From: Anaerolineae bacterium
GTDB taxonomy: Bacteria > Chloroflexota > Anaerolineae > Anaerolineales > Villigracilaceae
DNA: 37,920 nt
NCBI GenBank assembly: GCA_017303655.1
Contig: JAFLCE010000034.1
Coordinates: 1 to 37,920 of the forward strand
Direction of reading: 5' to 3'
This document shows positions 4,019 to 20,595 of the stretch, one piece after another (positions within the stretch are counted from its first letter, which is position 1; each line of letters begins with the position of its first letter). The translations under genes and the position numbers were made by a program. Under the pieces are notes generated by a model, which saw only the letters and a program-made list of their open reading frames with translations, was not told the origin of the DNA and ran no database searches.

Positions 4019-4036
4019 TGTTATAACATTATAACA
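4019..4036. promoter_or_regulatory. GntR operator O1 (upstream of gntR)
   Basis: TGTTATAACATTATAACA: perfect 8-bp arms around a 2-bp centre, 23 bp upstream of the regulator start. It lies immediately downstream of the predicted -10 box, where bound repressor would block initiation. It recurs at 10872-10889 and 20578-20595. Assignment to this GntR protein is inference from proximity and recurrence. Confidence 0.85.
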
Positions 4037-4065
4037 ATAATACCTATTTGCCGATTTAGTGTCAA
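4037..4065 (-). promoter_or_regulatory. sigma70-type promoter of the gntR unit
   Basis: On the minus strand TTGACA (4060-4065), a 17-nt spacer and TATTAT (4037-4042). A second TATAAT lies inside the operator. The operator starts right after the -10 box, consistent with autorepression. Confidence 0.75.
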
Positions 4066-4087
4066 GTGTCAGGTTTTTGGGTGTCAG
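4059..4087. repeat. heptad-periodic tract (GTGTCAR)
   Basis: GTGTCAA-GTGTCAG-GTTTTTG-GGTGTCAG: units repeating every 7-8 nt. It fills the gap between the PCC-domain gene stop and the regulator promoter, and its first unit overlaps the -35 box. Confidence 0.55.
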
Positions 4088-4088
4088 A

Positions 4089-4559
4089 TTAAAAAGCGGG
4101 GAGATCCCAAAGTTTCAGACTTGTCCCCTTGTGCATGGCGCGTTGGACGGGAATGCCGTCGTACGCTGTTAGCGTGAACTCAACCGCAAAGGCTTTTGCC
4201 CTGGAGGCATGTCCGCCGATCACGACCACGCCCGCATCGTTGGCTTCTTCATCTTGATACGACAAGGTCAGGTGTAGATGGACATACGGCTCACCATCCA
4301 GCATGGAAATAGTGCCATGCCCTGCAATGATTTCCAATGAACGGAAGAAGAACAAGGATGGGTTTCGCTCACGGGTTTGGAAGTTGTACTCGCTCAACTC
4401 CACACTGGTGATGCCGCCCAGCAATTCAAAGGTTGCAGCCTGGATATTTTCTTTCTTTGCTATATTCGCGAAAGCATCGTGAATATATTCTTCATCGGTG
4501 ATCGTGCCCATGAAAACACGCGTTGCCTTGGTGTTGACTTGTGCAAGTGAAATACTCAT
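4089..4559 (-). CDS. PCC/DUF296 domain protein
   Basis: 156 residues, single domain. The opening (TKATRVFMGTITDEEYIHDAFANIAKK) is followed by ATFELLGGITSVEL, then the conserved PYVHLHLTLS strand and GGHASRA loop. This LHxH-like plus G-G-H pattern is typical of the PCC domain (plant and prokaryote conserved, DUF296), a trimeric fold with a histidine cluster. The bacterial single-domain members lack the AT-hook of plant proteins and their role is unsettled. The start shares one base with the upstream stop (TAATG), so it is coupled to the DinB-like gene. It is the last gene of unit A. Confidence 0.85.
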   Translation of the reverse strand: MSISLAQVNTKATRVFMGTITDEEYIHDAFANIAKKENIQAATFELLGGITSVELSEYNFQTRERNPSLFFFRSLEIIAGHGTISMLDGEPYVHLHLTLSYQDEEANDAGVVVIGGHASRAKAFAVEFTLTAYDGIPVQRAMHKGTSLKLWDLPAF

Positions 4560-5098
4560 TATTTATTCCTCCGCTCCCACATCGATCGGATCGCCAGCAT
4601 TTCGCCCGTGTGACGAATGCCGTCGCTGAGACAGATCTTGACCCACTCGTAGTAACTGCGTTGTGGGTCGCCGCCTGGGGCTTTTTCGCTGAGTTGCTCA
4701 GGAGCCAAACCGTTGACGACTTCAGTCAACGCAGAAAGTGTATCGTTGAAATAGTTAAGCATGTCTTCGCGCGGCATGACAGGCACTGCTAGCATTTCTT
4801 CCACGCTGTAGCCAATCAGCACGCCCAAGCCGCGAATGCCTTTGCCGCGCGGGTCGTAGACTGTTTTATCCATCCAGCCGTTGACGAACCACTGCTCATC
4901 GTCAATGGGTTTGTTTTGAATGCGCATGACCACCATCATATCCATGATGCGGCTGATATGCCACATGGTGACAGCGATATGATTCGCTTCGGGATCGGGC
5001 TGGAAGGTGAGCGCAGCATCAGGCAAGTCTTTGAAGACAAAGTCTATGCCGTCTTTGTACGATTGAAGGAGGTCAAGGAGGATATCTTTTGAGTTCAT
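4559..5098 (-). CDS. DinB-like four-helix protein
   Basis: 179 residues. It looks all-helical, with MNSKDILLDLLQSYKDGIDFVFKDL at the start, MWHISRIMDMM near residue 50 and DGIRHTGEMLAIRSMWE at the end. A helix-borne His near residue 48 and a C-terminal H-x-G-E match the DinB/YfiT metal-binding four-helix bundle (DUF664-like); these proteins include thiol-dependent transferases and mycothiol-dependent isomerases. A maleylpyruvate-isomerase-like role would fit an aromatic or maleate-type pathway, but no direct evidence identifies substrate or cofactor. It lies 6 bp after the aldolase gene's upstream boundary and is coupled to the PCC gene. Confidence 0.75.
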   Translation of the reverse strand: MNSKDILLDLLQSYKDGIDFVFKDLPDAALTFQPDPEANHIAVTMWHISRIMDMMVVMRIQNKPIDDEQWFVNGWMDKTVYDPRGKGIRGLGVLIGYSVEEMLAVPVMPREDMLNYFNDTLSALTEVVNGLAPEQLSEKAPGGDPQRSYYEWVKICLSDGIRHTGEMLAIRSMWERRNK

Positions 5099-5104
5099 GA
5101 TTGG

Positions 5105-5863
5105 TTACCTTATCAACGTCTTCGCGCCGTTCATGATGAGGACTTGAGCGATACCAAGAATCACCGTTGCGCCGCGTGTGATCATTTTGTCCGCGTCGTC
5201 TTTTACACCTGCGGTGATTCCTGCGGCGACGCCTGCTCTTTTGCAAACAGCGAACACTTTATCAATCATCTCTTGTACTTCAGGGTGATTGGGTCCATCG
5301 GGGAAGCCCATGTTGAGCGAAAGATCACGCGGACCGATGACGACGGCATCTACGTGAGGTTGGGAGATCATGGCTTCAAAGTCATCAAGCAAGGCAGGGT
5401 CTTCGAATTGCGGGATGACCATGGTCTGTTCGTTGGCGAATTCGATGTATTTTTCCGCTCCCCCACTGTATGCCATGTATTTGGACGCCCGCGAAATGCC
5501 CACGCCTCTTTTTCCGACGGGTGGATATTTCACTGCGTCGACAAGCATTTTCACCTCTGACGCATTTCGCAAGTCGGGCATCATCACGCCCATCATGCCC
5601 GCGTCAAGATATTGCAAGACGATCTTCGGGTCTTTGGGTCCGATGCGCACGATCGGAGTCATGCCCGTCAACTCGCAAGCGCGGATGACGTTGACAGCCA
5701 TGTCGGGGTGAATCAGTCCATGTTCGGCGTCGAGCATGTAGTAGTCGAAGCCAGTCAAGCCGAAGAGCTCCGCGAGCTGCGGATCGGTCGAGGTGGAGAT
5801 CACGCCAAAGGCGGGCTGACCCGCTTTGAGTTTAAGTTTGAGGCGGTTTTCTTGGATGAACAT
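5105..5863 (-). CDS. HpcH/HpaI family class II aldolase
   Basis: 252 residues, the usual length for the family. LDAEHG (D45, E47, H48) carries the catalytic His pair region; AGMMGVMMPDL near residue 88 is the phosphate/carboxylate loop; KRGVGISRASKY carries the substrate Arg region; IPQFED supplies the metal Glu and GPRDLSLNMG closes the active site. Relatives cleave 2-keto-4-hydroxy acids to pyruvate or glyoxylate plus an aldehyde using Mg or Mn (for example HpaI or 2-dehydro-3-deoxyglucarate aldolase). In this operon it probably performs the carbon-carbon cleavage that feeds central metabolism. The precise substrate cannot be read from sequence. No strong ribosome-binding site precedes the start; a heptad repeat fills the upstream gap. 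Confidence 0.9.
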   Translation of the reverse strand: MFIQENRLKLKLKAGQPAFGVISTSTDPQLAELFGLTGFDYYMLDAEHGLIHPDMAVNVIRACELTGMTPIVRIGPKDPKIVLQYLDAGMMGVMMPDLRNASEVKMLVDAVKYPPVGKRGVGISRASKYMAYSGGAEKYIEFANEQTMVIPQFEDPALLDDFEAMISQPHVDAVVIGPRDLSLNMGFPDGPNHPEVQEMIDKVFAVCKRAGVAAGITAGVKDDADKMITRGATVILGIAQVLIMNGAKTLIR

Positions 5864-5864
5864 G

Positions 5865-5905
5865 TTGGTAATTGGTTGATTGGTAAATTGGTGATTAGTG
5901 GTTTA
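5865..5905. repeat. heptad-periodic intergenic tract
   Basis: TTGGTAA / TTGGTTGA / TTGGTAA / ATTGGTG / ATTAGTG units fill the gap between the CoA-transferase stop and the aldolase start, apparently displacing a normal ribosome-binding site. Confidence 0.6.
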
Positions 5906-5908
5906 TCG

Positions 5909-7102
5909 TCAAATAATCCCGTTTTCTTGCAAGGCTTTCAAATCTTCAGCCGTCAAGCCAATGGAAGCATAGACTTCATTATTGTGTTGACCGAGCGTGG
6001 GCGGAGGCGAGTAGGTGTCTTCGTAGGTGTCAGATAATTTTACAGGGTTACCGGGCATCTTGGCTTTTCCGCCAAGCGGATGTTCGACATCTACAACCAT
6101 ATTGCGTGAAAGAACTTGTGGATCGCGCAAGGCTTGCGAAATATCATTGACAGGTGCGCATGGAATGCGCTTGGCTTGTAATTTTTCAAGCCAATATGTT
6201 TTTGTATTTGTACTGAATATCTGATTGATGCGACGATTGATCTCGATCTGATTCTTCCAACGACCAGGCTGACCTTGGTTCTCTTCGGTGTTGAGTTCAG
6301 GCGTGTCGATCACCTCCATCAGTGCCGCCCAAAAATTATCGGTGATGACGGCGATGATGATATAGCCGTCAGAACATTGGAAGGTGTCGTAAGGGACATG
6401 CACAAAATGTCCATTGCCCAGTTTGTCTGGAATTTCGCCAGAGAGGAAGTGCATGGTCGCCATGTAGTTGAGCAGACTGATCTGCGCGTCGAGCATGGAG
6501 ATGTCCACGTGCTGTCCACGCCCCGTGGTGTGACGTGCCTGCAATGCAGCAAGCACACCGATGACGCCCATGAGTCCACCGCCGAGGTCACCGATGGGAA
6601 TGCCCGAACGTGTGGGCGGGTTATCGGGCTGACCTGTGATACTCATGCCGCCACCCATCGCTTGCGCGACCATGTCGAAGGCAGTCCGGTCTTTGTTGGG
6701 TCCCGTTTCGCCAAAGCCTGTGACCGTGCAAGTGATGATGCGCGGATTGATCTTGGACAGATGATCGTAATCGATTTTTAGGCGCGTCGTTACTCCTGCG
6801 CTGAAATTGCTCAAAACGATGTCGGCGGTCTTTACCAGTTCATAAAAGACCTGCAAGCCTTTTTCCGATTTGAGGTCGAGGGTGATGCTTTTCTTATTGC
6901 GGTTGAGCGTCATGTAATAAGCGCCGAAACCATTGAGACTGTTCTTCGGGTCTTTTTCCAACAGTCGGCGTGTGCCTTCGCCCGTAACAGGCGGCTCCAC
7001 TTTAATGCTTTCCGCGCCGAGGTCAGCGAGGATCATGCCTGCGTAGGGTCCGCTGAGCATGTGAGTGAGATCGAGAATTCGAATTCCTTGGAGGGCTTTC
7101 AT
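5909..7102 (-). CDS. family III CoA-transferase (CaiB/BaiF)
   Basis: 397 residues, standard length. MKALQGIRILDLTHMLSGPYAGMILADLGAE is the classic opening; LNRNKKSITLDLKS the second signature; AFDMVAQAMGGGMSITG contains D143, the predicted catalytic Asp that forms the acyl anhydride. GDLGGGLMGVIGVLAAL and the C-terminal LGQHNNEV block are also present. It would transfer CoA between carboxylic acids, probably activating a dicarboxylic intermediate for the aldolase or beta-oxidation-like steps. It sits between a membrane protein and the HpcH aldolase in unit A. The donor and acceptor acids are unknown. Confidence 0.93.
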   Translation of the reverse strand: MKALQGIRILDLTHMLSGPYAGMILADLGAESIKVEPPVTGEGTRRLLEKDPKNSLNGFGAYYMTLNRNKKSITLDLKSEKGLQVFYELVKTADIVLSNFSAGVTTRLKIDYDHLSKINPRIITCTVTGFGETGPNKDRTAFDMVAQAMGGGMSITGQPDNPPTRSGIPIGDLGGGLMGVIGVLAALQARHTTGRGQHVDISMLDAQISLLNYMATMHFLSGEIPDKLGNGHFVHVPYDTFQCSDGYIIIAVITDNFWAALMEVIDTPELNTEENQGQPGRWKNQIEINRRINQIFSTNTKTYWLEKLQAKRIPCAPVNDISQALRDPQVLSRNMVVDVEHPLGGKAKMPGNPVKLSDTYEDTYSPPPTLGQHNNEVYASIGLTAEDLKALQENGII

Positions 7103-7133
7103 GGGCGTATGTTGAGGTTCCTTGTGGTGTAAG

Positions 7134-7183
7134 TTATTGGTAAATAGTAATTGGAGATTGGTAATTACCAGTTACTAATCACT
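7134..7183. repeat. heptad-periodic tract with internal palindrome
   Basis: ATTGGTA-AATAGTA-ATTGGAG-ATTGGTA-ATTACCA-GTTACTA-ATCACT: seven 7-nt units that also fold on the GGTAATTACC palindrome. It reaches into the stop codon of the gene at 7175-7903, so the repeat has replaced that gene's end. Confidence 0.65.
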
Positions 7184-7903
7184 CCACGCAGGGAAACGCA
7201 TACGATAGGTCATATACATCAACCCTGCGGTTTGTAAAAGCAAAAAGATCATCGCATTGCCGAAAACGGCAAGATACGAAAGCGTGAAAATCAAATTTGG
7301 GATATGACCGAATAAAACTTTCTTCAGATTCCATTCAGGGATATTGTGCTCGGGTGCGACGTGAATATCCCAGTATTGGCTTTGCCATAATCCTTTGAAG
7401 GTGCCAACGATGAGGAAGGTCACCAGCGCGGTCAGCCAGACATTGCCGATGAATTTCTCGGTCACAGCCCAAGCCGAGAGAAAAACTTGACCTTCGCCCA
7501 AGCCCCAAAACAAGCCGAAGAACAAAACCTGCGGCATGTATAGTTCACGTCCATGCGTAAGGGTACCGCGGGGCCAGAGATAGAAATAAGCGAAGTAGAT
7601 CACGGCTATACACAAGAAAGTAAAAAGCCACCAGTAAAGATTTGAAACTTGTTCGCTTGTCGCAATCGGTTTCCTGATTAGTGTAGGCAGAACACCTGTC
7701 AGAATGCTGAGGATGAATCCGCTCGTGAAGTAGATGCCGCCGCGAATCCATGCCAGGTGCGGACTGTAGCTAGTGACTGTCCGCTTTTGGGCATGCAGGG
7801 TGATGGACAGAAATAAAAGTAAGCCGACCAACGCAAATAGGAAATAATCCATTGCGGAGTTGGTGAAGGACCAGAAGGGAGAGAAGATGGGAGTAGTAGG
7901 CAT
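7175..7903 (-). CDS. polytopic membrane protein of unknown family
   Basis: 242 residues with about six hydrophobic segments, for example YFLFALVGLLLFLSI near 20-35, GIYFTSGFILSILTGVL near 56-72, WWLFTFLCIAVIYFAYFYLW near 91-110, and further ones near 125, 155 and 215. Charged or His residues lie in the loops (HGRELYMPQ; IHVAPEHNIPEWN). I do not recognise the family. The start at 7903 has no clear ribosome-binding site; M18 (7852) is an alternative. It is one of three small unrelated-looking membrane proteins in unit A, so a membrane-bound step or a transport role for the substrate is plausible. Confidence 0.6.
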   Translation of the reverse strand: MPTTPIFSPFWSFTNSAMDYFLFALVGLLLFLSITLHAQKRTVTSYSPHLAWIRGGIYFTSGFILSILTGVLPTLIRKPIATSEQVSNLYWWLFTFLCIAVIYFAYFYLWPRGTLTHGRELYMPQVLFFGLFWGLGEGQVFLSAWAVTEKFIGNVWLTALVTFLIVGTFKGLWQSQYWDIHVAPEHNIPEWNLKKVLFGHIPNLIFTLSYLAVFGNAMIFLLLQTAGLMYMTYRMRFPAWSD

Positions 7904-7932
7904 AAATGAGGCAGTTGAACATCAAGACAACA

Positions 7933-8034
7933 GCCCCCTCCGCCCTAGCGGGCACCTCCCCCAAATCCGACAATATAAATTCTTCTGAAAACATAGGTTC
8001 TTCATGTCGGATTTGGGGGAGGACGGGAGGGGGT
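7933..8034. repeat. large intergenic inverted repeat, about 100 bp
   Basis: Inner arms CCTCCCCCAAATCCGACA (7955-7972) and its exact complement at 8005-8022; outer C-rich and G-rich ends (7934-7944 and 8025-8034) also pair. The loop is AT-rich. It abuts the stop codon of the isochorismatase-fold gene and ends about 30 bp before the next gene. It may act as a partial terminator or RNA-stability element, or be a small non-autonomous mobile palindrome. Confidence 0.8.
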
Positions 8035-8658
8035 CTAAAGAGTTTTCAAATACTCCATCACTTCCGCCTTCCCCACCACATCGCCATACTTTGAGTTGAT
8101 ATCGAACAGATTCGCCTCGTGCGGGCCAGGGTGCCTGTCCGCTACACATTCGCGGGGGACGATGACGCGGAAGCCGTACTGCATTCCGTCCACGGCAGAG
8201 GCTCGGATGCAGCCAGAGGTGGAGCAACCGGTGAGGAGAAGCGTGTCCACGCCGAGGGAGGTGAGAGTGGCGGCGAGAGAGGTGCCAAAAAATGCGGATG
8301 CGTATTGCTTGACGATGATGATGTCGGATTCGATGGGCGTGAGCTGTGGGACAATCTCCGCCAGCGGCTCGCCCTCGACCATTGTCTTGAGTACAGGCAC
8401 TTTCTGAATGAAGATGCCGCCATCACGGAAGTTCTTGTTGTAGAGGACTTTCGTATACAAGACGGGAATCTGTTTTTCGCGAGCAAGGCTGAGGAGTGGG
8501 ATCGTTTCGTCGACGGCGGTGACAACATCGGGCGCGAAAAGAGGCGCACCTTCCGTCACGTAGGCGTTGATAAAATCCACGATCAAGAGCGCGGGGCGTT
8601 TTCCAAACCCGAGGCGGCTATCGAAGACGCCTTTGTAATTACTTGCCAGATCAGACAC
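8035..8658 (-). CDS. isochorismatase-fold amidohydrolase (N-carbamoylsarcosine/maleamate amidase type)
   Basis: 207 residues from GTG 8658, overlapping the upstream stop by 8 bp. The Cys-hydrolase triad is intact: D28 in ALLIVDFINAY, K117 in IIIVKQYASAFFGT and C150 in GCSTSGCIRASAVDG. The extended TSGCxRASxxD block and the later ECVADRHPGPHEANLFDI run are those of N-carbamoylsarcosine amidase and maleamate amidohydrolase (NicF) rather than nicotinamidase. It should hydrolyse an amide to acid plus ammonia in the cytoplasm. With a maleate-isomerase-like gene under the same operator, a maleamate-type substrate is attractive, but this is inference. Confidence 0.88.
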   Translation of the reverse strand: MSDLASNYKGVFDSRLGFGKRPALLIVDFINAYVTEGAPLFAPDVVTAVDETIPLLSLAREKQIPVLYTKVLYNKNFRDGGIFIQKVPVLKTMVEGEPLAEIVPQLTPIESDIIIVKQYASAFFGTSLAATLTSLGVDTLLLTGCSTSGCIRASAVDGMQYGFRVIVPRECVADRHPGPHEANLFDINSKYGDVVGKAEVMEYLKTL

Positions 8659-9355
8659 TGGCTTGCCTTGTTGCTTGTACAGACGCAGGTGCGACGATGC
8701 CCGCTAGTTTCCAGGAAGCGTAGGCAAAAGCGCCTTGCCCAAAAGTATTCAACAGTTGTTCTGTCCATTGAAGCGGAATGGATTGTTCGGGGATGCGAGC
8801 GAGACCGCTGAGAACAAAGACAATGACGATATTTGCAAGGAAAAGCCACGCCATCTTGTTCAAGTTGTTGTATCTTGCCTGTTGAATAAGCAAAACGACC
8901 ATGACCACATTACCAATGGTCATCACGCCAAGTAGGATGAAGCGCCAAGTGTTAACCGTCAGGTCGGGGAAGCCGGTAAAAAGGATGGCGACCAGGCTTA
9001 GCCCCAGCACAACTGACGGTCCCAGCCAAATGCGCCCGGGCTGACGGTTTCCGCTGCGGATCTCGCTCACGAACCAGAGCGCAAATGCCAGCAAGGTAAA
9101 GCCAACGGACATCCACATGAACATACCTTTATCGAACCAGGCAATATTGGTCTGAGCGTTGGTCGCCGCCATGGTGAGTTTCCACGTCGCTTTGAGGAAA
9201 CCGCCAATGCTTACCAAGATGAAACCGATGGTCGCCATCTGACCGAGACGGGCGTTAACATTCTTAACCATACGGCTAACAAAGTACAAGCCAATGGATG
9301 AGAAAAGTACGGGAAGAAAATCTTCAAGAGCTAGCCCGAGGGTGTATGTTTCCAT
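8651..9355 (-). CDS. polytopic membrane protein of unknown family
   Basis: 234 residues from ATG 9355 with a good AGGAG upstream. Six to seven hydrophobic segments: FLPVLFSSIGLYFVS, MATIGFILVSIGGFL, MFMWMSVGFTLLAFALWFVS, SVVLGLSLVAILF, FILLGVMTIGNVVMVVLLI, WLFLANIVIVFVLSGLA and a weaker last one. The segment FGQGAFAYASWKLAG closes the protein. No family is recognised and no metal or cofactor motif is obvious. It overlaps the isochorismatase-fold gene by 8 bp, so the two are translated together. Confidence 0.65.
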   Translation of the reverse strand: METYTLGLALEDFLPVLFSSIGLYFVSRMVKNVNARLGQMATIGFILVSIGGFLKATWKLTMAATNAQTNIAWFDKGMFMWMSVGFTLLAFALWFVSEIRSGNRQPGRIWLGPSVVLGLSLVAILFTGFPDLTVNTWRFILLGVMTIGNVVMVVLLIQQARYNNLNKMAWLFLANIVIVFVLSGLARIPEQSIPLQWTEQLLNTFGQGAFAYASWKLAGIVAPASVQATRQASV

Positions 9356-9365
9356 GTGAGTCTCC

Positions 9366-9416
9366 TAATTGGACAATAGACGATTGACCATGGTCTATTG
9401 TCTGCCGTCTATCGTC
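9366..9416. repeat. heptad-periodic tract forming a 10-bp inverted repeat
   Basis: GGACAAT-AGACGAT-TGACCAT-GGTCTAT-TGTCTGC-CGTCTAT-CGTC: GAC/GTC recurs every 7 nt. GACAATAGAC (9372-9381) pairs exactly with GTCTATTGTC (9393-9402) around CCATGG. It fills the gap between two membrane-protein genes. Confidence 0.7.
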
Positions 9417-10059
9417 AAGATAAAAATTTTCTTGCAGTCAACACATTGCCAAGCCCAAGCACAACTTCGCCGAGGTTGCCAATAAAGAACATATCGCCCA
9501 TGCCTGCACCTGCGGCGATGAACATGAAGATCGCACCCGCCGCAAGCCACCACCAACCTGTGTTACGCCAGAGTGAAATGCCTGCCACGATCAAAAAGAC
9601 AATCGTCAACATGGCGGGAATGGGCGGACCTTTCATGCCGCCTTCGTTGGTATAGCGGAGTATATCCATGACGGTTTTTGTCTGCAAATCAAGTGCAAGC
9701 ACATCTTCATACACACCAAGAGCGATCAGCAGAGTGACAAAGACACAAACAACGATATGCGTGGTTCTGCTTTGCGCCCACTTCACGCCGGCATTTCTCA
9801 GCACGCCAAAGCCGAAGATGATCATGATAGGTGTCGCGAATCCATGCACAAGGTAGCGCCCAGCGTTCAACGTCTTGAGCAACTCCCCTTCCCCAATGAA
9901 CCTGCCCAATAAAATAATGAGCACATCATAGGCAAGCCCAGCCAGCACGATCAATAACAACAATGTATACGAAGACCGCTTGTTTCGATAAACTCCAACG
10001 GTCTGCCACGTCAGATAAACGAACAAGGCAACGAAGACGATGTAAAGTACAGTAAGCAT
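9415..10059 (-). CDS. polytopic membrane protein of unknown family
   Basis: 214 residues from ATG 10059 (MLTVLYIVFVALFVYLTW), preceded by AAAGGAGAGAG; the longer frame to 10128 overlaps the hydrolase gene and is rejected. Six hydrophobic segments are visible, including TLLLLIVLAGLAYDVLIILLG, PIMIIFGFGVL, HIVVCVFVTLLIALGVY, AMLTIVFLIVAGISLW, WWLAAGAIFMFIAAGAGMG and GEVVLGLGNVL. A loop HGFATPIMI and the run GMGDMFFIGNLGE stand out. Layout resembles the protein at 8651-9355 (same size and topology), so they may be distant paralogues or subunits. Function unknown. Confidence 0.65.
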   Translation of the reverse strand: MLTVLYIVFVALFVYLTWQTVGVYRNKRSSYTLLLLIVLAGLAYDVLIILLGRFIGEGELLKTLNAGRYLVHGFATPIMIIFGFGVLRNAGVKWAQSRTTHIVVCVFVTLLIALGVYEDVLALDLQTKTVMDILRYTNEGGMKGPPIPAMLTIVFLIVAGISLWRNTGWWWLAAGAIFMFIAAGAGMGDMFFIGNLGEVVLGLGNVLTARKFLS

Positions 10060-10073
10060 CTCTCTCCTTTTTC

Positions 10074-10859
10074 CTAAATAAAAAACTTTTTGATGACATC
10101 CGCAACCGCTTGGGGATTTTGGTCGCAAATGTAGGGACCTTCGTTCAGAATTACTTTCATCGCGCCGTTCTTCAAAATGGAAAATGCAGGTTCAAGGCTT
10201 GCCCGCAAGGTATCTTTTTCGCCAGACATCACAAGGATGGGAATCTCAAGCACGGATAACTGCTCCGCGAACGGCTGCTCGAACACGGCTTGATACGCGC
10301 CTTGCGCCGCCTCTCTCGCGGACTGGGTGAGGAGGACTTCTCTATGAACCGTTTCCAACGGGAGGGCTGAATCTCGCTTCCGGATCCGCTCCCAAACTTG
10401 CGTGAGATGCGAGCCGTCTTCTGCAATCGCAAACGGCTTGAGGCTGGCTTTCAATCCATTCACTTGCGCTTCATTCAATAATGGTGGACCTGATAAGATC
10501 ATCTTCTTCACGAAGTTGGGATGGTCAGACGCCATCTGCACTGCAATAGCTGAACCTGAGTGATGACCGAACACAAAACAAGACTCCACACCGAGTTGGT
10601 GCAGAGCAGTATAAAGGGAGTCTGATAAATATCGGATGCTGAATCCGCTTGGAGGTTGGAAAGAAGCGCCGAATCCGGGGTTGTCTAAAGCGATGGTGTG
10701 AAATGAGTCCGAGAGGAGAGTCATCAACGACTCGAACATCATCCCCGAACTGGCGGTTTGATGAAGCAGCACAAGCGGAACTCCGTCAACTTGTTTGAGT
10801 TGGCGAAAATGGACTTGACCGTTCGGCGTATCAACATAGCCTTTGCGGATAATTGACAT
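10074..10859 (-). CDS. alpha/beta hydrolase, first gene of unit A
   Basis: 261 residues from ATG 10859, preceded by AGGAGAG; the longer frame to 10907 runs through the operator. It has the oxyanion segment VLLHQTASSG, the nucleophile elbow GHHSGSAIA (S101) and the acid loop VMSGEKDTL (D216). At the usual His position near the C-terminus it reads NEGPYICDQNPQAV, so the expected catalytic His is replaced, with Pro242 in its place. The family includes N-formylmaleamate deformylase, meta-cleavage hydrolases and haloperoxidase-like esterases. It may be inactive, use another His, or be a lyase or decarboxylase-type member. It is divergent from the isomerase-like gene, with operator O2 between them. 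Confidence 0.85.
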   Translation of the reverse strand: MSIIRKGYVDTPNGQVHFRQLKQVDGVPLVLLHQTASSGMMFESLMTLLSDSFHTIALDNPGFGASFQPPSGFSIRYLSDSLYTALHQLGVESCFVFGHHSGSAIAVQMASDHPNFVKKMILSGPPLLNEAQVNGLKASLKPFAIAEDGSHLTQVWERIRKRDSALPLETVHREVLLTQSAREAAQGAYQAVFEQPFAEQLSVLEIPILVMSGEKDTLRASLEPAFSILKNGAMKVILNEGPYICDQNPQAVADVIKKFFI

Positions 10860-10880
10860 CTCTCTCCTGAATGTTATAAT
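10853..10880 (+). promoter_or_regulatory. consensus sigma70 promoter of the plus-strand unit
   Basis: TTGACA (10853-10858), a 16-nt spacer and TATAAT (10875-10880). Both hexamers match consensus exactly. The -10 box lies inside operator O2, so repressor binding should exclude RNA polymerase. A weaker minus-strand pair, TTGACT with TAACAT at 17 nt, could serve the divergent unit A. Confidence 0.8.
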
Positions 10881-10889
10881 GTTATAACA
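10872..10889. promoter_or_regulatory. GntR operator O2 (divergent promoter)
   Basis: TGTTATAATGTTATAACA: the same 8-bp arms as O1, with centre TG instead of CA. It sits between the start codons at 10859 (minus) and 10920 (plus), positioned to control both directions. Confidence 0.87.
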
Positions 10890-10919
10890 TTTACCTTCAT
10901 TAGTCAAGGAGACTCACCC

Positions 10920-13326: not shown

Positions 13327-13352
13327 CACCAGTTCTGCCCACCGATGATTAT

Positions 13353-13872: not shown

Positions 13873-15195
13873 TTAATGCCCAATGACTGCGCCGCCTTCG
13901 TTCTTCGGGACGATGCGCTTGCGGATGATCAAGCCGACGATGACCACGATCCAACCCAAGGCACTGAACAACACGAACGGACCCTGTGGCAGCCAGTTGT
14001 CGAAGAGTTGACCGCCAATTCCAGTGGCAATCATGATTCCGAACGTTCCACATAAGCTAAATATGCCAATGACCGAGCCGCGAATATCACGCGGAGCTTG
14101 TTGCGCGATCAACACGCCGCTGGCGATGACTCCGCTGATCTCGCCGATGCCGATCAAGGCGGCGACAATGAAAATTGCAGGGCTGGTCGGGTCAGAGACG
14201 AAGATCGTGGAGCCATAGCCAAGGGATGCCAAAGCGACAGCGATGATGACTGCATTGGCGCGATTCATACGGTCTGCCAGCATACCGAAGATCGGCGCGG
14301 ATATCATGGCAAAGGTCTGTGAAATGCCGATGATCATGCCTGCTGTTGCAAGCGCTTCAGAAGTTGGAAGTCCCTTTTGTGAGGTTCCATAGGTGACAAC
14401 CCAAAGCGTGAAGAACGTGCCGACAATGGCAAGGTCACCGCGGGAAATGAAAGCTGCCATGTAGGCAAGCGCAACTCCAGGGTCTTTTGCGGCGGCGAAG
14501 CCTTCCCTTGAAATTTGCAAGATACTTTTCTTTTGTTCTTTTTGTAGGCTGGTGCGGTTCTGTAAGCCAACGATCAGAATTACGGCAGAGATGGCGGCTA
14601 TGCCTGCGAGTGCCATGTAGGTCAATCGTCCCGCCTCCAACGCGGACATACCGTCAGCCATGAAAATTTTTGGGAGCTGAAGCACGACAAAGACCGTCAG
14701 AAGCGCGCCGATCCCGTTGCCAACTCCCTGCAAGCCAGATGCCTTGCCGCGGTCTTCATCCATTGCGTAATCAGCGATGACTGTGGAGATCATGGTGGTC
14801 ACAGCAGAGGAGCCGAGCGCGAACAATCCGCGAAAGGCGAACAGCATCGGGATGGTATTCACGTTGGGATAAAGATACAACGCGCCTGCCATCAGAAAAA
14901 AGCCCGCCGCAAAAACGAACTTCCGCCCGATCTTATCAGACAAGGTGCCCCAGCCGCCAATGGAAACAAGGATGATGATCTCGCCAAAAAACGTAAGGTT
15001 GCCGCTGATCACCCCTTGTTGACTTTCAGGGATGGCAAGCATTTCCGCCAGCAGAAAAGGCTGGAATTGCGGCAGGAATGTGAACAGCAAAAGTGACGTG
15101 ACAGTGGCAAAGTAATACGTGAACATATTTGCAGCAGTGACCCCCTGCATGAGTCGAACGGGACCAAATTTCTTTTGCACAGTTTCGGTTGTCAT
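13873..15195 (-). CDS. MFS transporter
   Basis: 440 residues with about 12 membrane helices, preceded by GAGGAGAG. Motif A between helices 2 and 3 is GGWGTLSDKIGRK; a second diagnostic loop reads ADYAMDEDRGKASG; the second-half equivalent is GMLADRMNRAN. A large central cytoplasmic loop (RTSLQKEQKKS) separates the halves. Such proteins import or export small organic acids, sugars or drugs by proton coupling. As the last gene of the nitrilase/monooxygenase/dehydrogenase unit under operator O3, uptake of the pathway substrate or export of an intermediate is likely. No substrate can be named. Confidence 0.92.
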   Translation of the reverse strand: MTTETVQKKFGPVRLMQGVTAANMFTYYFATVTSLLLFTFLPQFQPFLLAEMLAIPESQQGVISGNLTFFGEIIILVSIGGWGTLSDKIGRKFVFAAGFFLMAGALYLYPNVNTIPMLFAFRGLFALGSSAVTTMISTVIADYAMDEDRGKASGLQGVGNGIGALLTVFVVLQLPKIFMADGMSALEAGRLTYMALAGIAAISAVILIVGLQNRTSLQKEQKKSILQISREGFAAAKDPGVALAYMAAFISRGDLAIVGTFFTLWVVTYGTSQKGLPTSEALATAGMIIGISQTFAMISAPIFGMLADRMNRANAVIIAVALASLGYGSTIFVSDPTSPAIFIVAALIGIGEISGVIASGVLIAQQAPRDIRGSVIGIFSLCGTFGIMIATGIGGQLFDNWLPQGPFVLFSALGWIVVIVGLIIRKRIVPKNEGGAVIGH

Positions 15196-15232
15196 GACTC
15201 TCTCCTCTAAAATTTGGATGATGGACTATCCT

Positions 15233-16678
15233 CTAAAACGGTCTGGGTGTTTCGCCTAACTCCAAACTGATCCACTTCAACTCAGTGAAATGCTCCACCG
15301 AATATTTCCCGCCGCTTCTGCCAATGCCAGACATGCCATATCCGCCAATCGGCGCCATCGGGTCAGATTGAAATGAATGAGTCCCAACATGAACAGACCC
15401 ACATCGGATTCGCCTTGCCGCGGTCATGCCTCGCACAAGATCATTCGTCAACACACCCGCGCTCAAACCGTAATCGCTTTCATTTGCAATCGCGAGCATC
15501 TCTTCAAATGACGGAACTTCCGTCACCATCGCCACGGGACCAAATGTCTCTTCATCCCAGCACGGACCCGACATCGGCGGGTTGTAGATCACCGTCGGTT
15601 GAAACACAAGACCTTTATGCACATTTCCGCCAGTAAGAATTTCCGCGCCGCCATCTTTCGCCGCCAGCACATGGCGAATCACTTTATCAATCGCCCGCCG
15701 ATTAATCAACGGACCATATGCCGTTTTTTCATCGCGCAAGTCACCGAGATGCAAACTCGCCGCCTTCTTCGCCAATGCTTCTGCAAATGTACGTCCATTC
15801 GGCGCTTCGACCAAGATGCGCGCGCTCGACATACAAATTTGCCCGCCATGCGTGAACGCCCCCACCGCCGCGATCTCCGCTGCCTTGGTTACATCCATGT
15901 CGTTCAACACCAACAGCGGATTTTTTCCGCCGAGTTCCAACTGCATCCGCTTCATGGATTGAATTGCGATCTCGCCGATTTTCACGCCCGTCGCCGTCGA
16001 ACCCGTCAACGCAACGCCATTCACTTTGGGATGCTTCGCCAACGGAGCGCCGCACTCCGCGCCGAATCCCGTCACTACGTTGAAGACACCATCAGGAAGC
16101 CCCGCTTCATGCATGACCTTCGCCAGCTCCACCGCAATGAGCGGAGTCTCCTCTGACGGCTTCGCTATCACGGCATTGCCCGCCCCCAACGGAAAGACAA
16201 TCATCTTCGCCAGCAACACCAACGGCGCGTTGAACGGCGAGATCGCCAGCACCACACCGACAGGTTCGCGTACCACCATCGACATACGATGCGGTTTTTC
16301 ATTCGGCAGCGTGTCTGCGTACATGCGCCGCACCTCCCCCGCCGCAACCCTCAACACCGACGCCGTGTACAACACCTCATACTTCGCCTTCATAACCGCC
16401 GACCCGCTCTCGTCGATCAGCAGATTCAACAAGCGGTCATAATTCGCTTCGACATTATCCGCACACTTGAGCAGAATCTTCTCGCGCTCATACGGTGGTA
16501 GCGACACCCAATGCTCATATCCTTTCCACGCAGACGAGACCGCCGCCTCCACATCCGCCTCCGTCCCGCGCGCGGCATGACCGAGAATCTCCCCCGTCAT
16601 TGGCGCATAACTGGGAAAGGTCTCGCCATTTGCCGCGGGGACTTCTCGTCCGTGAATGAAGTGTCCGTAATTTTTCAT
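15233..16678 (-). CDS. NAD(P)-dependent aldehyde dehydrogenase
   Basis: 481 residues, full length. AISPFN with N150, LTGSTATG as the nucleotide loop, LELGGKNP with the general base E248, and GGQICMSSARI with the catalytic C282 are all present. EETFGPVAMV and the closing PIGGYGMSGIGRSGGKYSVEHFTELKWIS block place it with salicylaldehyde/vanillin/benzaldehyde-type dehydrogenases. It oxidises an aldehyde to the carboxylate in the cytoplasm. It lies directly downstream of the FAD monooxygenase, separated by a paired-hairpin repeat. Aromatic substrate preference is suggested by similarity only. Confidence 0.93.
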   Translation of the reverse strand: MKNYGHFIHGREVPAANGETFPSYAPMTGEILGHAARGTEADVEAAVSSAWKGYEHWVSLPPYEREKILLKCADNVEANYDRLLNLLIDESGSAVMKAKYEVLYTASVLRVAAGEVRRMYADTLPNEKPHRMSMVVREPVGVVLAISPFNAPLVLLAKMIVFPLGAGNAVIAKPSEETPLIAVELAKVMHEAGLPDGVFNVVTGFGAECGAPLAKHPKVNGVALTGSTATGVKIGEIAIQSMKRMQLELGGKNPLLVLNDMDVTKAAEIAAVGAFTHGGQICMSSARILVEAPNGRTFAEALAKKAASLHLGDLRDEKTAYGPLINRRAIDKVIRHVLAAKDGGAEILTGGNVHKGLVFQPTVIYNPPMSGPCWDEETFGPVAMVTEVPSFEEMLAIANESDYGLSAGVLTNDLVRGMTAARRIRCGSVHVGTHSFQSDPMAPIGGYGMSGIGRSGGKYSVEHFTELKWISLELGETPRPF

Positions 16679-16690
16679 GATTTATTATCC

Positions 16691-16757
16691 ATAGGGGCGG
16701 GGTTTCCCGCCCAATATTATGTTGGGTGATTACAGGGCGAGGAGACCTCGCCCCTAC
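16691..16757. repeat. paired-hairpin repeat (REP/BIME-like), copy 1
   Basis: Two hairpins about 22 nt apart: GGGCGGG-GTTT-CCCGCCC (16695-16712) and GGGCGAGG-AGA-CCTCGCCC (16735-16753), the pair bounded by TAGG on the left and CCTA on the right. It lies exactly between the monooxygenase stop (16759) and the dehydrogenase start (16678). Same architecture as 37418-37487. Confidence 0.75.
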
Positions 16758-16758
16758 G

Positions 16759-17940
16759 TTATATGCGTTCTTCCAACATCGACGCCCGCAACAAATATGC
16801 CCTTGCCTTCGCAGGGTCTGCCGCCGCACCCGAAAGGGACTTGTTCCTACGTTCCCGTTCTTCTTCAGCACTCATCACCATGTTGTTGTACTGCTGATCG
16901 GTATAAAGTTGCACGGACTCAATCGCGTATTGTCTACGCTCGTTCGAGTAATCATCGAGAATGGATTTCGATTCGCCGTTCCAGATTCGGATAAGTTTTT
17001 CTGTCAAATTCGCCGCATCGTGGATTCCGCTGTTCATGCCCATACCGCCCGATGGATTATTGTTATGCGCCGAGTCGCCCACGAGCAACGCCCGCCCCAC
17101 GCGGAAGGTGTCCGCTACTCGTTGATGGACGCGATACAACTGCGTCGTCTTGATTCTATATTCAGGGACTTTTCCAAAAAAGTTGGAAATCCGCGCTCGC
17201 AGATTTTCTTCCTTCATGGCGGTTTCTTCATTTTCATCATCCGTCATACGAAACACCACGCGGACAATATCGGGCAAATTCAAAATGATGACCCATTCCT
17301 GCGGGTCAAAGATGTAGCAGACTTGCGCCGCACCTGGAAGCAGGTCTTCGGTCTTCAAGTCGCTGCCAATTAATAAGAAGCGGTCTTCGTAGGTCTTGCC
17401 TTTGAAACCGATATTCAACTGCTTGCGGATGACACTATGAGTCCCGTCCGCGCCAACAATGTACGAGCCTTCGCGTTCCACAATTCCACTTGCAGTTTCA
17501 AAGCGTGCTGTGACATGCGTGCCGCGGTCAACGAAATCAATAAGTTTATGCCCCATGTGAACTTTGCCAGTGGCTGTCGCTTCGACGGCAGGTTTCAGCA
17601 CACGTGTGGCGATATGCTGGGGGCACTGCAAACGATACGGGTAGGGAGTATCGTCTGAAATGCAACCATAATCAAAGTCCGCAATGAGGCGGCGCGGAGC
17701 GCGTTCCCAATATTGAAGTTGATCTACTTTGTATCCATGCTGGATGATGTCATCCACTACACCCCACTCTTTGAACATCTCCAGCGTCTTGGGGTGAAAG
17801 GTGCTCGCGCGGATCTGCGTGTTGAGTTCCGCCTCCATTTCGAAGACTTCGGCAGGAATGCCTGCACGAGAAAGCGCCAACGCCAACGAAAGCCCCACAG
17901 GTCCCGCACCAGCAATGAGGATAGGTAATGATTGAGTCAT
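16759..17940 (-). CDS. class A FAD-dependent monooxygenase (aromatic hydroxylase type)
   Basis: 393 residues. The start is taken at ATG 17940 (MTQSLPILIAGAGPVG); 33 extra codons upstream would be read from the intercistronic palindrome. FAD motifs are complete: GAGPVG at 11-16, the Asp-Gly motif VGADGTHS (D165) and the GD motif GRALLVGDSAHNNNPSGGMGMN (G288-D289). About 390 residues is normal for single-domain PobA, salicylate or 6-hydroxynicotinate 3-monooxygenase relatives. It would insert one oxygen atom into an activated ring using NAD(P)H. Context with an aldehyde dehydrogenase and amidohydrolases indicates ring activation early in a catabolic route. Substrate not determined. Confidence 0.92.
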   Translation of the reverse strand: MTQSLPILIAGAGPVGLSLALALSRAGIPAEVFEMEAELNTQIRASTFHPKTLEMFKEWGVVDDIIQHGYKVDQLQYWERAPRRLIADFDYGCISDDTPYPYRLQCPQHIATRVLKPAVEATATGKVHMGHKLIDFVDRGTHVTARFETASGIVEREGSYIVGADGTHSVIRKQLNIGFKGKTYEDRFLLIGSDLKTEDLLPGAAQVCYIFDPQEWVIILNLPDIVRVVFRMTDDENEETAMKEENLRARISNFFGKVPEYRIKTTQLYRVHQRVADTFRVGRALLVGDSAHNNNPSGGMGMNSGIHDAANLTEKLIRIWNGESKSILDDYSNERRQYAIESVQLYTDQQYNNMVMSAEEERERRNKSLSGAAADPAKARAYLLRASMLEERI

Positions 17941-17946
17941 AAAAGA

Positions 17947-18024
17947 TTTCACCACAGAGACCATGAAGAACACAGAGTCTTTTTTATTTTTTCTCCGTGC
18001 CCTCTGTGTTCTCCATGGTGAAAG
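17947..18024. repeat. intercistronic long inverted repeat
   Basis: Arms ACCATGAAGAACACAGAG (17960-17977) and CTCTGTGTTCTCCATGGT (18002-18019) pair with one mismatch; the pairing extends outward through TTTCACC and GGTGAAA with an imperfect stretch. The loop is T-rich. It fills the whole space between the RCCR-like stop and the monooxygenase start. Confidence 0.75.
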
Positions 18025-18027
18025 AAT

Positions 18028-18816
18028 TTACTCGCGCTCGCCTGCGTGCAAGATACGCACCAAGCGTTCACGCATCGGCATGCCGAGCATGCGATCTGCT
18101 AAAACATTAGCCGGGTCTTTCTCCACGATCGTGCGGCGGACGAGTTCATCGCGCTGTTTCAACGCCGCGCGTTTTTCAGGCGCAACGGGCTTGGCATTCT
18201 TCACCAACTCCACCCAGTTGCGGACGTAATCCAACATGACCGACTCAATGTGCGCCTTGAAATCTGCGAACGGGACTAATCCACAGATCGCGATCGGCGA
18301 CAGAGTACCGCGTGTATAAAGATGAACGGGATTGAAAGTCTTATACGCAGGGTTGCGGCGTAACTCGATCCATTTTTGATTCATCGACTCGTGATACTGG
18401 TCAAGGTGCTCTGGCGAAATAACGGGCTCATAACGCGGCAAATAATCGACATAACAAAACACATCGGGAGCAGTACCCAACGCCATGCCAAGATGCGGCA
18501 CATCAATTTCATCTTTAAGCCAGCAAGTGAGATGGATATTCGTGAAACCCGTCTCTGCCTTGCCGATCCACGAGCGAATGATCCAATCCACTTTATCGCC
18601 GGTGTAGGTGTGCATGTTCCCAACAATATTGCCCTGCAGATCAGGGATATGTTCGATGTCCTTGCACTTCAAATCCTCGCGCAAGTTCAAGCCTTCACTC
18701 ACCATCTTCCACGCTTGCTCGCGCACGTTCAACAAATAGTTGAACACTTCCGTATTGTTGACAGGCGCGCGCGAGTCAAGCACATCTGCCAGGTGTTGAA
18801 CTGTATCTCCGCTCAT
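18028..18816 (-). CDS. red chlorophyll catabolite reductase-like protein
   Basis: 262 residues from ATG 18816, preceded by AAGGAGACAACC; the longer frame to 18879 is rejected. There is no signal peptide. The central block PHLGMALGTAPDVFCYVDYLP (107-127) followed by RYEPVISPEHLDQYHE, the later VHLYTRGTLSPIA (164-176), and the C-terminal QRDELVRRTIVEKDPANV plus RMLGMPMRERLVRIL recall the plant red chlorophyll catabolite reductase domain, a ferredoxin-dependent bilin reductase relative. This is judged from memory of that family, not from a search. If right, it reduces a linear tetrapyrrole-like or other conjugated substrate. It is second in unit C, after the double nitrilase. Confidence 0.6.
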   Translation of the reverse strand: MSGDTVQHLADVLDSRAPVNNTEVFNYLLNVREQAWKMVSEGLNLREDLKCKDIEHIPDLQGNIVGNMHTYTGDKVDWIIRSWIGKAETGFTNIHLTCWLKDEIDVPHLGMALGTAPDVFCYVDYLPRYEPVISPEHLDQYHESMNQKWIELRRNPAYKTFNPVHLYTRGTLSPIAICGLVPFADFKAHIESVMLDYVRNWVELVKNAKPVAPEKRAALKQRDELVRRTIVEKDPANVLADRMLGMPMRERLVRILHAGERE

Positions 18817-18830
18817 GGTTGTCTCCTTCT

Positions 18831-18860
18831 GGTAATTGGTGATTAGTAATTGGTTATTGA
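18831..18860. repeat. heptad-periodic intergenic tract
   Basis: GGTAATT-GGTGATT-AGTAATT-GGTTATT: four clean 7-nt units (RGTNATT) between the nitrilase and RCCR-like genes. Confidence 0.65.
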
Positions 18861-18889
18861 GTCTTGCTTCAAACTTCAATTAATACTTA

Positions 18890-20557
18890 CTATTTACTAC
18901 TTACAAGTGGCTTCGCCAACTTCCACGGTCTGCCATTCAAAACATCGGTACGCTGTGAAACCATCTTATTCACTGAAGCTGCCGGGTGAATGACCGCACT
19001 CGTCAAGCCATCTCCTTGCACCGTTGTCACCACGGGGTAATTGATATTGCCATCGAACGGTCTGTTCTTCCATTCCGTCCAAAGCGTAAAATCTTCAGTG
19101 ATAGCATAAATGCCGCTGTCCGTTTTACTCGCCACGATCACATTCATGCGGTTCTCAGCCGCGCGTTCTTTGAAGCCGTGCTCCACTTCCCACTTCTCAA
19201 GAATCATCGTCGGCACCGCGACAACTTCCACATCTCTTAATGCCGCGAGTCGAAACGTCTCAGGATAGATGGCATCATTACCGATCACCAACGCCACGCG
19301 CCCCCACTCGGCATCGAACACATTCACCTCATCGCCCAACTTCGACCACGCATGTCTGCCCGACTTGTGCAACTGCGGCTGCTTCAACACAACGCCGCTT
19401 TTATTGAACAACACGCCCACATGCATTCCATCTTCAACTATCGACGTCGCCACATAGGCATCTTTCAATCCACTTTGCAATGCGCGAATCATCTCAACCG
19501 ATTCTTTTTCCACGCTTTCCAAATTCGTGATGTGGAATAACTCTGGGAGGACAATTAACTTAACTCCAGCCTTTTCCCCCTCCGCAATCATCTTCAACGC
19601 CGAATCAATCGCTTCTTTTCCTGACGTCGAAACCTGCCCCACCCCCGCAAGCAGATTCTCCGCCCCAGGCTTTTTCCCGCCACTCTTCGACTCGACCCCA
19701 AGCGGCACATACAACTCCGGTCTGCGCGTGGACATAATGTCCGTGCCATCGGGGCGAAGTTTATTATCGGCTTCGCTCAAGTCAATATCCGCGAACACCA
19801 CGGCTTCACCTTTCATTGGCGCTTTGGCTAAGACCGTCCCATCGGGAGCGACGATCTGACTCTCGCCCGCGCCTTCGAGAAAACTTGGGTCGATCTTCAA
19901 GCGTGCCGCGACTCCCTCACGCATCTCTTCGGGCACCAATGACCCAACCTTATTTGCCGCGACGACGAACACTTTATTCTCCGCCGCACGGACGGGAATA
20001 TGCAGCGACGCTTCATCATGCGCGAACGAGTTCAAGCTATTCAATAACATCTGCGAACGTCTCACCGCCAACGCCCGCGCCACCTCAGGGATGACCCCGT
20101 CCATGCAGGCGTACATACCCACCTGCCCGATCTCAGTTTCGAGAATCGGCGCAATGGTCGTGGACTTCTCTAAGAAGTTATTTTCATTGCCCATCAAAAT
20201 TTGCTTGTCAGTCAAGCCAGCTACATTCCCCGCTGGGTCGAACAAAACATTTGTACCCGAAATCTTGCCATCATCCCGTTTCAATGTGACATTAATTTTG
20301 ATATAGCAGTTATGCTCTTTGGCTTTTCCGCCTATCGCGTGGATAAAGTCATCGTCGAGCGAAACAGCCACCCCGTAGCAATGAGCCGCGTCTTTATACC
20401 AGGCGATGTGATTCACAAATTCAGGCAGCACGATCACATCCGGCTTGACCTTCGCCGCTTCGTCGATCATCCGCAGGCAAGTTTGCAGATTCGCAGTGAC
20501 GTTATCCGTCACCGCAAACTGTACCGCCGCCGCTCGTATTTTTGTTTTGTGAGCCAA
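18890..20557 (-). CDS. fused double nitrilase-superfamily (C-N hydrolase) protein
   Basis: 555 residues from TTG 20557, supported by GGAGG at a good distance and by the operator just upstream. Two nitrilase domains are joined head to tail. Domain 1 (about 1-280) has the full triad: E46 in VIVLPEF, K118 in LTDKQIL and C151 in YACMDGVIPE. Domain 2 (about 300-555) keeps E339 (IVLPELF) and K398 (LHKSGRH), but reads VIGNDAIYPE where the Cys should be, with Gly426 in its place. So one active amidase/nitrilase/N-carbamoylase domain carries a catalytically dead twin, which may stabilise the dimer or bind substrate. First gene of unit C. Substrate unknown. Confidence 0.88.
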   Translation of the reverse strand: MAHKTKIRAAAVQFAVTDNVTANLQTCLRMIDEAAKVKPDVIVLPEFVNHIAWYKDAAHCYGVAVSLDDDFIHAIGGKAKEHNCYIKINVTLKRDDGKISGTNVLFDPAGNVAGLTDKQILMGNENNFLEKSTTIAPILETEIGQVGMYACMDGVIPEVARALAVRRSQMLLNSLNSFAHDEASLHIPVRAAENKVFVVAANKVGSLVPEEMREGVAARLKIDPSFLEGAGESQIVAPDGTVLAKAPMKGEAVVFADIDLSEADNKLRPDGTDIMSTRRPELYVPLGVESKSGGKKPGAENLLAGVGQVSTSGKEAIDSALKMIAEGEKAGVKLIVLPELFHITNLESVEKESVEMIRALQSGLKDAYVATSIVEDGMHVGVLFNKSGVVLKQPQLHKSGRHAWSKLGDEVNVFDAEWGRVALVIGNDAIYPETFRLAALRDVEVVAVPTMILEKWEVEHGFKERAAENRMNVIVASKTDSGIYAITEDFTLWTEWKNRPFDGNINYPVVTTVQGDGLTSAVIHPAASVNKMVSQRTDVLNGRPWKLAKPLVSSK

Positions 20558-20577
20558 AGACTGCCTCCGAGGCTAAA

Positions 20578-20595
20578 TGTTATAACATTATAACA
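20578..20595. promoter_or_regulatory. GntR operator O3 with embedded -10 box
   Basis: TGTTATAACATTATAACA, identical to O1. On the minus strand it contains TATAAT, the likely -10 box of unit C, only about 20 bp from the TTG start. The matching -35 region is weak, which may mean dependence on an activator or an extended contact. Confidence 0.85.

Follow-up and report, generated by a model that had tools for sequence, protein, structure and literature searches.

Introduction

Regulators of the HutC subfamily of GntR proteins (NagR, HutC, PhnF type) combine an HTH with a UTRA domain. In the portion of PMC4494728 drawn on here, their sites mostly have four nucleotides between GT and AC, with the published consensus GTMTAKAC and the centre TA, and in many groups of the subfamily a weaker half-box lies 7-12 nt from the centre. 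Here, we describe an element of similar build in DNA of 37,920 nucleotides from an Anaerolineae bacterium (assembly GCA_017303655.1, contig JAFLCE010000034.1, positions 1 to 37,920; this whole stretch is called the window), where three copies stand at operons around the gene gntR, which encodes a HutC-type regulator. The likeness to HutC-subfamily regulons covers the two domains, the GT-4 nt-AC palindrome and the weaker extra half-site; the gene set controlled would be a different and larger one. The explanation that we favour, with a confidence somewhat above even, is that the element is the operator of this GntR protein in a regulon for probable tetrapyrrole catabolism.

Vast amounts of chlorophyll are degraded, and characterised members of the RCCR/FDBR reductase superfamily, to which the RCC reductases (RCCR) belong, act on tetrapyrroles. 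Like the plant PaO/phyllobilin pathway of chlorophyll breakdown, the gene cluster described below has a Rieske oxygenase adjoining RCCR homologues; it differs in its VanA_C-type Rieske protein, in three RCCR-superfamily paralogues, in an added lower pathway and in STAYGREEN, which was not found in a search that lacked a positive control. RCCR-like and FDBR-like sequences were already known from bacteria, among different neighbouring genes: in the passages of PMC10151467 cited here, FDBR-superfamily reductases lie, as in our case, in bacterial clusters (the pre-PcyA/FDBR clusters of heterotrophic bacteria) and an RCCR-related outgroup is noted, while the neighbours there are heme oxygenase, V4R and globin, none of which was recognised in the present cluster. 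Searches of the open-licence literature yielded neither a description of this cluster or regulon, or of a bacterial RCCR cluster, nor a bacterial gene cluster that takes chlorophyll or its linear catabolites to central metabolism.

Three identical sites in the window

A sequence-only reading of the window had proposed an 18-bp operator, TGTTATAA-N2-TTATAACA, at three promoters, and a scan of the window indeed found it exactly at 4019-4036, 10872-10889 and 20578-20595. The three sites are one identical 18-mer, TGTTATAATGTTATAACA, reading towards gntR, an AMDase-family gene and a nitrilase gene, respectively, and all contain TGnTATAAT and the perfect palindrome TGTTATAACA. There was no other match in the window with up to three mismatches (chance expectation 0.14), and 0 of 100 shuffled window sequences reached three matches. 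The genome-wide scan that had been suggested as a check gave the same trio as the sole exact copies in 172 contigs (4.6 Mb), followed by one place with two mismatches and 12 with three. At up to three mismatches a reversed control pattern was even commoner in the whole genome (21 places vs 16 for the 18-mer), so that only the exact copies stand out and looser matches are uninformative alone. Chance recurrence of the motif is ruled out by the window scan, the genome scan and the match counts across genomes given below. The copies had been placed at divergons or operon heads: the middle one does lie in a divergon, the only one of the three, and each of the others heads an operon that follows a gene running in the same direction.

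Architecture of the operator

The proposed 18-bp dyad proved to be off-centre when upstream regions of other genomes were compared. K-mers were counted, without any motif being given, in 53 upstream regions (19 of gntR, 17 of the nitrilase and 17 of the AMDase-family gene) from 40 chosen loci, many of which are related; the counts peaked at AATGTTAT, with ten-base peaks at AATGTTATAA and TGTTATAACA. With at most one mismatch AATGTYATRACATT was present in 42/53 of these regions and in 0/53 shuffled ones, and TGTYATRACA occurred exactly in 43/53. Judged from the aligned sites, the conserved element is the 14-bp palindrome AATGTYATRACATT (GT-N4-AC) plus one weaker, one-sided half-site, which lies 8 bp to one side. 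The palindrome core carries 1.2-2.0 bits per position and the extra half-site 0.3-0.9 bits, in sites picked by the palindrome at loci picked for holding regulon genes. This site set comprised 131 matches with at most one core mismatch, mostly counted on both strands, of which 123 are no more than 300 bp away from a regulon-gene start, a few of them (in L116, L132 and L135) probably by chance; the contig-repeating loci L095, L099, L112, L123 and L102 were omitted, and L052, L141, L143, L144 and L145 were not scanned. A symmetric 18-bp dyad was rejected as the operator because its second half varies between genomes. As in the HutC type, the palindrome has four nucleotides between GT and AC and lies near its own gntR gene.

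The regulon in other genomes

The regulator matched the Pfam models for the HTH (68.6 bits) and UTRA (109.2 bits) domains, both above cut-off. Just upstream of orthologues of this GntR (43-90% identity), 10 of 19 other loci fetched have the operator, which differs from the 18-mer at 0-3 positions. In relatives that have these genes scattered over separate loci, the operator still accompanies them. In a genome of the same genus that consists of one contig (G213), the gntR/AMDase cluster has two operators, and a third stands before nitrilase-RCCR-FAD monooxygenase-aldehyde dehydrogenase (ALDH) genes 2.8 Mb away (1.3 Mb the other way if the contig is circular). G094 has the operator before LeuC-LeuD-CoA-transferase-DHPase genes on one contig and, on a separate contig, before a gntR fragment with the g2814, DUF3891 and lip2 genes; G181, G248, G138 and G228 each have it at more than one locus.

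The site also tracks the gene set across 298 genomes of the class. A degenerate form, TGTYATRACATTNNNRYA, had 26 matches among the 12 genomes with an RCCR homologue, spread over 11 of them (reversed control 0), and five matches in five of the other 286 (reversed control 6); the enrichment (Fisher p 1.5e-15) is for a pattern tuned on some of the counted sites. The untuned 18-mer with at most one mismatch occurred in 8/12 RCCR genomes and 8/286 others (Fisher p 4e-9), its reversed control in 1/12 and 6/286. Three of these eight others (G027, G061, G089) match at one common AT-rich spot that lacks the CA/TG centre; the matches of G122 and G175 retain it, and a partial GntR match lies near the G122 site. 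Within 300 bp of a regulon-gene start lie 25 of the 26 degenerate matches, two of the 26 overlapping, and the remaining one (G094:C18), which fronts MerR and P-type-ATPase genes, is probably off-target. In a tree of 30 GntR proteins (L143 was omitted, its alignment being too short), the 20 linked to cluster or operator need 2 label changes vs 8.6 in shuffles, and two unlinked rows fall among the linked ones.

An RCCR profile scan of a genome collection returned 49 loci, which by their record titles fall into 26 in Chloroflexota, 10 in Acidimicrobiia and 13 in others; some of them are contigs already in the class set. By the degenerate form or the 18-mer with at most two mismatches, the operator was found at 21/26 Chloroflexota loci and at 1/23 of the rest, there as one match with two mismatches.

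Several observations weigh against a single HutC-type regulon. By the same search five of the 26 Chloroflexota loci lack the operator, and G020, which is cluster-linked, has no match to the degenerate form. The centre of the palindrome is AT here vs TA in the HutC consensus of the text cited above (PMC4494728). A GntR of G084 (L142, G084:C15), with an operator just upstream at 10485-10502, stands outside the clade with no cluster seen nearby. Nevertheless, the footprint across genomes and the separated loci that keep the operator strongly support, at the level of sequence, the idea of a single GntR regulon, and one operator with one GntR very probably ties these operons together.

Promoters at the operators

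Each copy had also been said to overlap or abut a -10 box. This was borne out at operators 1 and 2, which are touched by the two best sigma-70 matches in 19 kb (Table 1); operator 3 shows just TGnTATAAT towards the nitrilase gene and no -35 that passed the scan. Overall, the sigma-70 scan gave no excess of promoter-like matches (20 vs 18.0 in shuffles). The TGnTATAAT inside each copy and the two best promoter matches would suit an explanation of the repeats as common -10 promoter elements and no operator at all. We regard this as highly improbable: the exact copies do not recur in the genome, the palindrome tracks the gene set between genomes, and it is retained, in either orientation to the gene, while the other half is variable, on which ground a pure -10 element was rejected. 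Binding and repression by GntR, which we infer from sequence and conservation, would take place on the -10/start region, so that RNA polymerase would be blocked.

Extent and spread of the gene set

The three sites had been taken to mark the boundaries of the system, but this does not hold on either count. The left end of the contig, and with it that of the window, falls inside the gntR operon, and in the interior the glyoxalase, GSDH and F420 genes (11713-13787) have little or no conserved link to the cluster. In G213 (L034) the gntR run continues with 14 more genes: first an alpha/beta hydrolase, a Rieske/VanA_C oxygenase, a third RCCR/FDBR-superfamily protein, another barrel protein and an SDR; then a flavin reductase-HMGL fusion, LeuC- and LeuD-like hydratase subunits, a CoA-transferase and a dihydropyrimidinase-like amidohydrolase; and last an MFS transporter, an acyl-CoA dehydrogenase, an ALDH and a peroxiredoxin-like protein. 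The fusion protein (L034 8808-10202) joins a flavin-reductase domain to an HMGL-type lyase domain, an unusual pairing.

The same gene series is carried by another contig of the window's own genome, C102, whose Rieske gene is the sole full-length one found in that genome. Window 1-1311 overlaps C102 (L052) 1-2121, the common stretches being 90% and 96% identical; an additional RCCR gene of C102, placed between lip1 and the hydrolase, has no counterpart in the window. The genome is a metagenome-assembled genome (MAG) with 5.8% contamination; from their sequences, the left end of the window and C102 look like strain variants in one MAG, or else two copies. A search of C102 for the operator, allowing up to three mismatches in 1-20000 and up to two in the rest, gave no match.

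The figure of about 22 genes given by the sequence-only reading is near the in-window count, and the set is not a loose collection: it is a recurring pathway common to several phyla. Three RCCR/bilin-reductase-superfamily paralogues, a Rieske oxygenase, lipocalin-fold proteins, a nitrilase, amidohydrolases and CoA enzymes recur in Chloroflexota, Acidimicrobiia, Gammaproteobacteria and Myxococcales-type genomes. In one homologue comparison, matches over 60% of the query only were used and the contig-repeating L095, L099, L112 and L123 were omitted. The fetched DNA of all ten Acidimicrobiia loci holds the Rieske, third reductase and lip3 genes. The 13 other loci come from Gammaproteobacteria, Deltaproteobacteria/Myxococcales, an Oligoflexaceae, Ca. 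Rariloculus, an unassigned bacterium and one cyanobacterial MAG, with the Rieske gene in 10/13, the ABH2 hydrolase in 10/13, lip3 in 8/13 and the third reductase in 6/13; among them is a non-MAG record, Litorivivens lipolytica CECT 8654 (L135), which has the enzymes without this operator. The Acidimicrobiia cluster L108 has MmgE/PrpD, cyclase and HpcH-type genes and no LeuCD match, a hint that different enzymes carry out the hydratase and lyase steps there. Identity of the AMDase-family protein is 78-98% among Chloroflexota clusters and goes down to 75% in L128. PCC is conserved in several clusters; DinB is unmatched in those of G213 and G234.

Evidence on the substrate

The RCC reductase profile PF06405 was matched by the window protein (Table 1) and by a C102 protein (79.3 bits). 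The homologue aligns to plant RCCR with E 3e-17, the Asp of the RD motif being invariant, and the third superfamily paralogue is homologous and has no Pfam match. The FDBR profile PF05996 was not reached: the C102 protein scored 26.8 bits vs the cut-off of 31, and the window protein was unlisted. Models of the barrel proteins resemble BFA1/DUF3598, nitrobindin and S/T-type bilin lyases, with which they would share a lipocalin-like fold at 6-16% sequence identity in the rows shown. According to the parts of PMC7318184 and PMC8669743 considered here, oxidative breakdown of tetrapyrroles yields mono-pyrroles and maleimides, and in what we cite of PMC8531759 a STAYGREEN homologue of another Anaerolineae genome removes Mg from chlorophyll, which makes chlorophyll processing in the class conceivable. 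Tetrapyrrole catabolism fits the locus because of the RCCR-type reductases, the oxygenase, the bilin-lyase/nitrobindin-like barrels and a downstream route for imides, half-amides and branched C4 diacids. On this ground a tetrapyrrole of the chlorophyll or heme-bilin type is, by a modest preference, the probable substrate.

A number of findings count against such a substrate. The Glu position of plant RCCR (E154, presumably the catalytic Glu; Glu and Asp have catalytic roles in the plant enzyme) is not kept in the alignment with the bacterial homologues. Barrel folds are common, and structure lists that name barrels are no proof of tetrapyrrole binding. STAYGREEN was found in 0/22 genomes in a search in which no control genome gave a match either. 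The Rieske protein matched the Pfam models Rieske and VanA_C and no PaO model, for which reason membership in a plant-type PaO pathway was not upheld. A bilin route fed by heme oxygenase is likewise unsupported, heme oxygenase being present in just 1/12 RCCR genomes. The FAD monooxygenase, amidase and isomerase families would also suit a nicotine-like route.

This last point leads to the main rival, in which the same GntR regulon would serve an N-heteroaromatic substrate (a pyridine or simple pyrrole) by a variant of the nicotine/nicotinate maleamate pathway, RCCR-like proteins having been recruited to a non-tetrapyrrole. The FAD monooxygenase is near HspB (E 6e-41) and the amidohydrolase near 3ot4 (E 2e-43), which we take to be a maleamate amidase, and a maleate-isomerase-family protein and an alpha/beta hydrolase are in the cluster. 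The excerpt of PMC5343071 used here shows the same families in the ndp nicotine cluster (ndp/nic), including an HspB-like monooxygenase; in contrast to that pathway, the present cluster has added reductases and barrels, no Hpo-type dioxygenase was recognised in it, and its isomerase-like AMDase-family protein lacks both members of the catalytic Cys pair of maleate isomerase, the aligned positions being Met and Gly. A 2,5-dihydroxypyridine dioxygenase was not recognised among the genes scanned, no dedicated search having been made, and the three RCCR/FDBR-superfamily paralogues and bilin-lyase-like barrels are left unexplained. Overall, we hold an N-heteroaromatic substrate to be rather unlikely. 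Still less likely is a real regulon for a general or detoxifying pathway (e.g. for phototoxic pigment fragments or xenobiotics) instead of a growth route; many of the families are broad (MFS, SDR, ALDH, Rieske), but CoA-transferases, LeuCD, HMGL and acyl-CoA dehydrogenase suit carbon use and the gene set is conserved across phyla.

Genes of the window

Table 1 Sites, promoter-like sequences and genes in the left part of the window.
Feature	Position	Strand	Basis or remark
ABH2 alpha/beta hydrolase, start, cut by contig end	1..193	-	translation; 96% DNA identity to C102
lip1, relative of lip2	203..982	-	hhalign 97%, E 4.5e-11
lip2, double lipocalin-like barrel protein	979..1893	-	model pLDDT 92; fold matches
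DUF3891 protein	1907..2755	-	Pfam
g2814, single lipocalin-like barrel protein	2814..3269	-	model pLDDT 88; nearest BFA1/DUF3598, also nitrobindin, CpeS
GntR regulator with UTRA domain, HutC type, proposed operator binder	3271..3996	-	Pfam, tree
Operator 1	14-bp palindrome 4017..4030, extra half-site to 4036	.	upstream of gntR
Sigma-70-like promoter TTGACA-17-TATTAT, 11/12	4065-4037	-	abuts operator 1, directly upstream; consensus match only
PCC-domain and DinB-family proteins	4089..5098	-	
HpcH/HpaI-type aldolase	5105..5863	-	
Family III CoA-transferase	5909..7102	-	
mem7175	7175..7903	-	no Pfam match, patchy conservation
Isochorismatase-family amidohydrolase, close to N-carbamoylsarcosine amidase and 3ot4	8035..8658	-	Pfam; E 2e-43 to 3ot4
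mem8651 and mem9415, probably membrane proteins	8651..10062	-	no Pfam match; membrane character judged by eye
Alpha/beta hydrolase, first gene of leftward operon	10074..10859	-	Pfam
Sigma-70-like promoter TTGACA-16-TATAAT, 12/12, TG before -10	10853-10880	+	overlaps operator 2, towards AMDase-family gene; consensus match only
Operator 2	14-bp palindrome 10878..10891, extra half-site from 10872	.	divergon of alpha/beta hydrolase and AMDase-family genes
AMDase/maleate-isomerase-family protein without the two catalytic Cys	10920..11663	+	
Glyoxalase	11713-12132		matched in 2/49 loci of genome scan
GSDH	12142-13326		matched in 0/49 loci of genome scan
F420	13353-13787		matched in 0/49 loci of genome scan
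MFS transporter	13873..15195	-	
Aldehyde dehydrogenase	15233..16678	-	
FAD monooxygenase, nearest PnpA and HspB	16759..17973	-	
RCC-reductase homologue, paralogue A	18028..18816	-	PF06405 52.6 bits, cut-off 24.9
Double nitrilase, two CN_hydrolase stretches	18890..20557	-	
Operator 3	14-bp palindrome 20576..20589, extra half-site to 20595	.	upstream of double nitrilase

To the right, 21793-31785 holds unrelated neighbours, judged by eye from translations: TPR and NTPase-like proteins, a restriction/helicase-like open reading frame that ends early (25734-26681), a protein with two kinase-like domains (26818-29967) and a kinase-like protein (30208-31785); they possibly serve defence or signalling. 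Further on lie a 998-aa FAD-oxidase/4Fe-4S fusion (31762-34758) and a URO-D-family protein (36162-37367), with no operator near either.

Proposed pathway and significance

For tetrapyrrole catabolism, the substrate and step order that we infer from co-occurrence, protein families and predicted folds would be as follows. GntR is probably an autoregulated repressor at the operator and would be released on binding of a pathway intermediate to its UTRA domain. Under its control would stand the nitrilase operon, the gntR operon with its continuation beyond the contig end, and both operons of the divergon, one headed by the AMDase-family gene and one by the alpha/beta-hydrolase gene. The pathway would be aerobic: the Rieske oxygenase may attack the tetrapyrrole, the three RCCR/FDBR-superfamily paralogues would reduce the product, which the lipocalin-fold proteins may bind or handle, and the FAD monooxygenase would cleave it to mono-pyrrolic units. 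Dihydropyrimidinase-like, nitrilase and amidohydrolase enzymes would then hydrolyse imide or half-amide units, and the substituted C4 diacids would be converted via CoA-transferases, the LeuCD-like hydratase, HMGL/HpaI lyases and acyl-CoA and aldehyde dehydrogenases.

In sum, the operator indicates, whatever the genes are called, those that would act together, a conserved set round RCCR/bilin-type reductases in bacteria, and the regulon supplies a gene list and, with operator plus GntR, a possible reporter. We give about an even chance that this is a dedicated bacterial pathway, switched at transcription, which would mineralise chlorophyll- or heme-derived tetrapyrroles, from ring opening via the reduction of linear tetrapyrroles to central metabolites, and which would be common to Chloroflexota, Acidimicrobiia, Gammaproteobacteria and Myxococcales-type bacteria.

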